The notes under the pieces: generated by a model
Told to the model about the DNA's origin: nothing
Seen by the model: only the letters and a program-made list of their open reading frames with translations
The model's database searches: none
Made by a program: the position numbers and the translations under genes
NCBI RefSeq assembly: GCF_002847345.1
Contig: NZ_LXFV01000010.1
Coordinates: 124,001-188,000 of the forward strand
Source of the DNA: Pectobacterium peruviense
GTDB taxonomy: Bacteria; Pseudomonadota; Gammaproteobacteria; Enterobacterales; Enterobacteriaceae
Direction of reading: 5' to 3'
Length of the DNA stretch: 64,000 bases
In this document: positions 21,081-54,764 of the stretch, piece after piece
How positions within the stretch are numbered: position 1 is the first letter of the stretch
Layout of the letters: each line of letters starts with the position of its first letter

Positions 21081-21254
21081 AAAAAAAAGCCAGCACCCGA
21101 GCTGGCTAAATAATACTGGAAGCAATGTGAGCAATGTCGTGCCTTCACAGGGAAGCTGGATCGTCGTGAACACCCTTAACAAATCATCGTTAAACAATTT
21201 ATCGTTAAACAACTCATCATTAACACAGGTACATGACATCGTTCCCCGGAACGC
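21081..21254 (-). ncRNA. ryhB: RyhB small RNA, extended form
   Basis: The minus strand carries the RyhB core almost unchanged: GCACGACATTGCTCACATTG beginning at 21142, then CTTCCAGTATT and AGCCAGC...GCTGGCT with eight T as terminator (21081-21108). RyhB is the Hfq-dependent, Fur-repressed RNA that lowers iron-rich proteins when iron is scarce. The promoter has TTTACA (21285-21290), an 18-bp spacer and TATTAT (21261-21266), placing the start near 21254. The transcript would then be about 174 nt, roughly twice the 90 nt of E. coli. The location downstream of yhhW in this orientation is also conserved. Confidence 0.88.
21181..21230 (-). repeat. 15-bp tandem repeats inside the RyhB 5' part
   Basis: On the minus strand TTGTTTAACGATAAA and TTGTTTAACGATGAT are adjacent 15-bp units. 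A diverged unit precedes them (TGTTAATGATGAG) and a partial one follows (TTGTTAAGG). They fall in the segment that E. coli RyhB lacks. Confidence 0.75.
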
Positions 21255-21256
21255 AC

Positions 21257-21275
21257 AGCAATAATAATCATTATC
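21257..21275. promoter_or_regulatory. Fur box of ryhB
   Basis: AGCAATAATAATCATTATC matches the 19-bp Fur consensus GATAATGATAATCATTATC at 15 of 19 positions. It overlaps the -10 element and part of the spacer of the ryhB promoter, so iron-loaded Fur would block transcription. Confidence 0.8.
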
Positions 21276-21356
21276 ATTCGCACTTGTAAAGTGCTTTTTG
21301 CGATAAATTCTTATTCTCAATACGGACTGCAGAACAGCCCGTTTTACTCCATACCG

Positions 21357-54553: not shown

Positions 54554-54764
54554 AAAAAAAAACGCTTACCGATAAACGGTAAGCGTTGAAAATATCAGGT
54601 CTGTCAGACAACAGAATGGTGCCTCACTCAACGTTATGTCCGGAAGGCCCGATGGAGATTTGCATCTTCATCTGGAGTTGGACGATAGGCACCTCAAATT
54701 GGCTCTGCGTCATTCCCAGGATTATGAAGCCGAAGCAAGCATAGAAGGTGGAATGAGCATCTAC
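54554..54764 (-). ncRNA. glmZ: GlmZ small RNA
   Basis: The minus strand begins GTAGATGCTCATTCCA at 54764, as E. coli GlmZ does. It keeps GAATGACGCAGAGCC, TATCGTCCA and the glmS-pairing part ACGTTGAGTGAGGCACC (about 54615-54640), and ends in the stem AACGCTTACCG/CGGTAAGCGTT with a long T run (54554-54562). The length of about 211 nt compares with 207. GlmZ base-pairs with glmS mRNA, with Hfq, to raise glucosamine-6-phosphate synthesis; RapZ and RNase E inactivate it. The location after hemY is conserved. Confidence 0.92.

Follow-up and report, generated by a model that had tools for sequence, protein, structure and literature searches.

Length is not treated here as defining a RyhB RNA, since transcripts of 168 to 233 nt bear the name, as the accessible portions of PMC2964681 and PMC11790442 make plain. 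The RNA of E. coli (RF00057) is annotated at 95 nt in NC_000913.3, and RyhB1 and RyhB2 of Yersinia enterocolitica measure 108 and 109 nt according to an extract of PMC10342277. RyhB of Shewanella oneidensis is 168 nt long by RACE and that of Vibrio cholerae 215 nt (PMC2964681, in the part available), and Vibrio parahaemolyticus RyhB reaches up to 233 nt (PMC11790442, excerpt). For V. cholerae, a stabilizing role of the long 5' part has been proposed, and the authors of PMC11790442 call it unclear why longer RyhBs occur. In Erwinia amylovora, RNA-seq gave lengths of 140 nt for RyhB and 135 nt for Hrs15, both Hfq dependent in the available passages of PMC4070566. Pectobacterium atrosepticum has a RyhB paralogue, ryhB2, of 106 nt that goes up under starvation (PMC4710047, in extract), and the half-lives of Yersinia pestis RyhB1 and RyhB2 differ without Hfq (PMC4003864, likewise in extract).

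Here, we consider a RyhB gene of Pectobacterium peruviense, located in the window, i.e., the whole stretch of 64,000 nucleotides that was analyzed. The presence of the gene is confirmed and the feature is real. Most likely it is one of two RyhB genes in this genome, repressed by Fur and transcribed from 21254 into a primary transcript of about 174 nt, in which 79 extra bases lie within stem-loop 1 (SL1) and are followed by an unchanged core and terminator; it probably acts like other RyhBs, with the long hairpin most likely protecting the RNA or tuning its stability.

The RyhB gene next to glpC

The gene lies between glpC, whose product carries 4Fe-4S and CCG domains, and an alginate-lyase-like gene (domain score, 35.4 bits). 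A covariance search of the window matched RF00057 at 21081-21146 on the minus strand with 88.9 bits (E 1.5e-15), compared with a gathering score of 55, and the core begins at 21142 with GCACGACATTGC. This agrees with the earlier note, which had been made from the letters of the window and had put core and terminator at 21081-21142. Counted from the start of the core, 56 bases are without any difference across the 25 copies of this locus in our genus sample of one genome per species, and an intrinsic terminator with a U-run (Hfq tail) is present. Because of the core, identical in 25/25 copies, the Fur box, and the terminator, a Fur-repressed, Hfq-dependent RyhB is to be expected, and genes for both Fur and Hfq were found in the genome. 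Elsewhere in the window, the small RNA GlmZ (54556-54764, minus strand; 193.7 bits) is ordinary.

The promoter and Fur box described in the earlier note were likewise recovered (Table 1). With its 18-nt spacer the promoter scores 10/12, although by itself the scan is weak proof, as it covered 801 bases in both directions and returned two sites against 1.5 expected. The Fur box, sought with a 14-base palindrome as the pattern, is the only site in the window at up to two mismatches (0.15 expected); in the 4.78-Mb genome, 14 places have at most one mismatch, while the reversed-pattern control gave none. Promoter and Fur box are retained in all 25 genus copies, among which mean pairwise identity is 97% from -45 to -1, 60% from -160 to -61, and 41% over the 100 bases 3' of the gene.

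In E. coli K-12 (NC_000913.3), the promoter GTGCGAATGAGAATGATTATTATTGTCTC precedes the annotated +1 GCGATC; in the window, GTGCGAATGATAATGATTATTATTGCTGT precedes GCGTTC at equal spacing. Since the two promoters are nearly identical and the annotated first G lines up with G21254, the start at 21254 appears well placed, directly 3' of the putative Fur-box promoter, and the primary RNA is predicted to be 174 nt long. The proposal of the earlier note that transcription starts here is thus borne out by the E. coli alignment, by the promoter kept in 25/25 copies, and, as described below, by a 5' end that can pair with the stretch immediately before the core. Transcription from 21254 under Fur repression would yield the RNA at low iron.

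Table 1. Features of the RyhB locus in window coordinates
Feature	Position	Strand	Basis
-35 hexamer TTTACA	21285..21290	-	Promoter scan; unchanged in 24 distinct genus rows
-10 hexamer TATTAT	21261..21266	-	Promoter scan; unchanged in 24 distinct genus rows
Fur box, 1 mismatch to TGATAATNATTATCA, overlapping the -10 region	21262..21276	-	Pattern search
Inferred transcription start, G of GCGTTC	21254	-	Alignment with annotated E. coli K-12 ryhB 5' end
Enlarged SL1, predicted single long hairpin reaching two bases into the core	21141..21254	-	Folding and comparison
SL1 conserved basal stem, 5' arm	21242..21254	-	Comparative pairing
SL1 conserved basal stem, 3' arm	21141..21154	-	Comparative pairing
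15-bp tandem repeats, 3.1 copies, 83% matches, apical SL1	21178..21223	-	Repeat search
RyhB core with target-pairing stretch	21108..21142	-	RF00057 match; genus identity
Intrinsic terminator hairpin and U-run	21081..21107	-	RF00057 match and scan

Two RyhB matches above the cut-off occur in 25/25 genus genomes. Measured from the base matching 21254 through the last base of the U-run, the window-type copy has a predicted length of 131 to 139 nt in 22 of them, 159 nt in P. zantedeschiae (L030), 174 nt in the window, and 175 nt in L026; the comparison across Pectobacterium that the earlier note called for therefore finds this copy in all 25 genomes, and it is not unique to the one under study. 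The second copy has a predicted length of about 103 to 106 nt in 22/25 genomes, its start being less sure, and the length of P. atrosepticum ryhB2 fits this second copy (about 105 nt) and not the copy in the window (PMC4710047, in the portion available). Two more genomes have a second copy with a slightly different -10 region that the pattern missed, and in another (L085, G013:C1) its terminator is interrupted. The interruption follows GTGCT and begins with an inverted repeat, perhaps of an insertion sequence.

A glpC match stands in the flank of the window-type locus in 23/25 genomes (flank of 1.5 kb, or 0.5 kb for L067), with none matched in L011 and L024. Among the best 80 named glpC loci listed, a search with a 26-base core allowing four substitutions placed RyhB near glpC in 5/5 Pectobacterium and 3/3 Brenneria loci and in 0/72 others, one of which (L101) is almost without downstream flank. 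The window GlpC is 97 to 99% identical to the five named Pectobacterium loci.

For a wider comparison, the start was set by exact Fur-box and -10 matches in 77 loci, some places being represented twice, which gave 59 distinct sequences. These came from the genus, the named loci, a family search (92/149 genomes matched; among the best 29 further loci, 14 were used and 15 left out because the box was inexact or the promoter differed), and genomes hit by a promoter pattern that demanded TTCY near the start (53/392 hit, 30 used). Their predicted RNAs span 92 to 179 nt, a few lengths being slightly short through a broken U-run, with 31 to 115 nt before the core. In a genome of another family, two weak RyhB-like matches below the cut-off (L211 and L213, G412:C1; 36.1 and 32.6 bits) lie about 370 bases apart, with Fur-like boxes of three and four mismatches. 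At a predicted 174 nt, the RNA of the window lies outside the range of about 90 to 110 nt seen in E. coli and Yersinia. Its description in the earlier note as about twice the usual length holds against E. coli, but the family spans 92 to 179 nt and RyhBs of 135 to 233 nt are already published (PMC2964681, PMC11790442, and PMC4070566, each in its accessible part).

A predicted enlargement of the first hairpin

The stretch before the core is 112 nt long in the window and 33 nt in E. coli, so that the roughly 80 extra nucleotides of the earlier note measure 79. In the predicted fold, the 5' end would pair with bases just before the core, generating a long 5' hairpin that is followed by the core and then by the terminator. 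For SL1 of the window, the folding energy is -36.2 kcal/mol (z -2.66; 2/200 shuffles as good), and for the whole RNA z is -2.00 (6/200). Both the extra part and the repeats within it are mostly paired in this fold. Within the genus, the 5' arm of SL1 shows 90% identity, and no region of the RNA is less conserved than the middle of the extra part, with 56% identity when gaps are counted and 77% when they are not.

The base of the hairpin is shared far more widely. In 59/59 distinct sequences, with 31 to 115 nt before the core, bases 1, 2, 4, 5, and 6 can form standard pairs with bases ending two bases inside the core; when the partners are slid by one to four bases, 22 to 61% of the cells at the same five positions pair. 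As these five pairs are almost invariant, the comparison speaks for conservation more than for covariation. A 41-row alignment, chosen from the 59 for long hairpins or starts like GCGTTCCG, extends the basal stem to 12 pairs, of which 97.2% of the cells are paired (at most 67% when slid) and 12 cells have both sides changed, compared with 3.6 in shuffles; 0/500 shuffles reach either of these values, and two out of five measures exceed the shuffles only moderately (30/500 and 28/500). When the comparison is limited to the 24 distinct genus rows, every cell of the basal stem is paired and all changes are one-sided, and covariation within the genus is not above shuffles (score, 131/500; cells paired, 75/500) because the stem hardly varies. 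Partition-function folding gave the basal stem a probability of at least 0.5 in 22/24 genus RNAs and 29/35 others, compared with 2/590 controls with shuffled pre-core parts; another fold was predicted for two genus RNAs (L015 and L016) and six of the others. Prediction and comparison both point to a hairpin at the 5' end whose base lies at the core.

Because the five basal pairs close the pre-core stretch into one 5' hairpin in all 59 sequences, the extra sequence, including the 15-bp repeats that the earlier note had correctly seen, is most readily understood as the distal portion of an enlarged SL1. We reject an independent or free tail, because the predicted fold joins the extra part to the 5' end. 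In the sense of an enlarged SL1, the other structure that the note had envisaged is supported by the folding model. So the core would stay at the base of the hairpin at any SL1 length. Length would drift at the tip, the site of the 15-nt repeat, and would not move the core away from the hairpin base.

The repeats are present in the same number in L026 and with one unit fewer in L030, and none of the remaining 22 genus copies has them. Selection of the repeat unit for self-complementarity finds no support, shuffled units being as good in 570/2000 cases for two copies and 527/2000 for three. An alignment of the apical part of L030 with its counterpart in L045, a locus of another genus (z 8.3; 0/500 shuffles), makes a simple recent insertion of the repeat doubtful; three comparisons of apical parts with Brenneria-type copies gave no signal (154/500, 235/500, and 132/500 shuffles did as well). 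Because of the L030/L045 alignment, the long tip may be ancestral, and the shorter class may stem from a deletion between GTTAATG copies. In a glpC tree of 26 rows out of 29 loci offered (L011 and L024 had no glpC match, and L067 contributed only 321 bases), the window groups with L026 and with L014, which lacks the repeats (98/95), and L030 is unplaced. The three repeat carriers are not grouped alone in this tree. A more far-reaching idea, which we regard as improbable, is that SL1 is an evolvable length element: species, and perhaps strains, would come to differ in hairpin length because slippage at the tip removes sequence between GTTAATG repeats or adds 15-nt units, tuning the stability or dosage of one RyhB paralogue while leaving the seed untouched.

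Targets and alternative readings

The classical and best-known target of RyhB is sodB. This gene was not found in the window genome, whose one Fe/Mn superoxide dismutase (L214, G000:C15:82268-82531) is closest to Mn enzymes. Fe/Mn superoxide dismutase matches number one in 24/25 genus genomes and two in G011; as judged from these matches, with the enzyme of the window genome as the one that was typed, nearly all of the genus may lack sodB. Neither the core nor SL1 paired with the sodA leader above shuffles (83/300 and 267/300 shuffled queries as good, respectively), and pairing runs on the correct strand of the sdh region reached at most 10 pairs, a figure that comes without a control. The RNA would be bound by Hfq and pair with mRNAs through its core.

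Conceivably, the active species has the usual RyhB length, arising from an internal promoter near 21175 or from trimming of the 174-nt RNA by RNase E to about 90 nt or less. There is a precedent in ArcZ, which is cleaved to 55 to 60 nt (PMC11331407, in the excerpt available), and RNA-seq of P. atrosepticum detected a 106-nt ryhB2, though one matching the other copy of the genome (PMC4710047, in extract). We consider this unlikely. Between 20800 and 21600, the scan found no second promoter-like site on the same strand; the conserved 5' arm of the hairpin (90% identity) would be lost if transcription began near 21175; and the promoter at 21290-21261 is equivalent to that of E. coli ryhB. Very unlikely, in our view, is a gain of targets by this copy through extra target-pairing sequence in the enlarged part, as the earlier note had ventured, even though the SL1 arms and the CCTGTGTTA stretch are kept in most genus rows and divergent 5' parts have been suggested to confer distinct targets on the Salmonella siblings and different activity or stability on those of Yersinia (PMC4211561, in the passages available). 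Added targets find no support here, given that the predicted fold leaves little of the extra part unpaired and that its middle is the least conserved region of the RNA, and they are further disfavored by the occurrence of the repeats in 3/25 species and by the shuffle-level pairing of SL1 with the one leader compared, that of sodA.

A dual-function RNA, in which SL1 encodes a small peptide, is barely credible. SgrS/SgrT is an example of such an RNA. The 15-nt period is divisible by three and nested open reading frames of 13 to 16 codons occur in the window SL1; yet start codons, frames, and stops vary, and 2/25 copies lack any open reading frame of at least eight codons starting in SL1. With no frame common to the 25 copies, a conserved small open reading frame in SL1 is rejected. 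A Fur-repressed RyhB with an enlarged first hairpin remains the reading that we prefer, its 5' hairpin being expected to shield the RNA from decay that starts at the 5' end. The interpretation given in the earlier note, taken as a whole, is partly supported.

Comparison with described RyhB RNAs

The likely biological effect is modest. The fixed closing bases of the first hairpin and the fixed core, together with a tip that spans some 80 nt, locate the length variation of RyhB in the family, and the resulting natural series of RNAs with one seed and differing 5' hairpins can be used to probe the role of the first hairpin in the stability and activity of Hfq-dependent small RNAs. In the openly licensed PMC literature, as far as its accessible text goes, we found no description of a 131- to 175-nt Pectobacterium RyhB or of its hairpin.

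E. coli RyhB resembles the RNA of the window in its core, the type of terminator, the Fur-box promoter, and the spacing to the start, and its 5' end can likewise pair with bases at the start of the core, with A-A at one of the five basal pairs. It differs in having 33 nt rather than 112 before the core and no reported tandem repeats. In Yersinia there are two paralogues, as in the window genome, but neither is long, and no RyhB lies beside glpC in the Yersinia loci examined, among them L101, where downstream flank is all but missing. Erwinia amylovora, another plant-associated enterobacterium, is similar in possessing two RF00057 RNAs that are longer than that of E. coli, but its loci are pspF/sapA and EAM3277/EAM3278 and not glpC, according to the accessible part of PMC4070566. 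The long RyhBs of Shewanella and Vibrio share the core together with a long 5' part but belong to other lineages. Long RyhBs are therefore already known, and what stands out in Pectobacterium peruviense is the unusually long, repeat-bearing first hairpin that is predicted.
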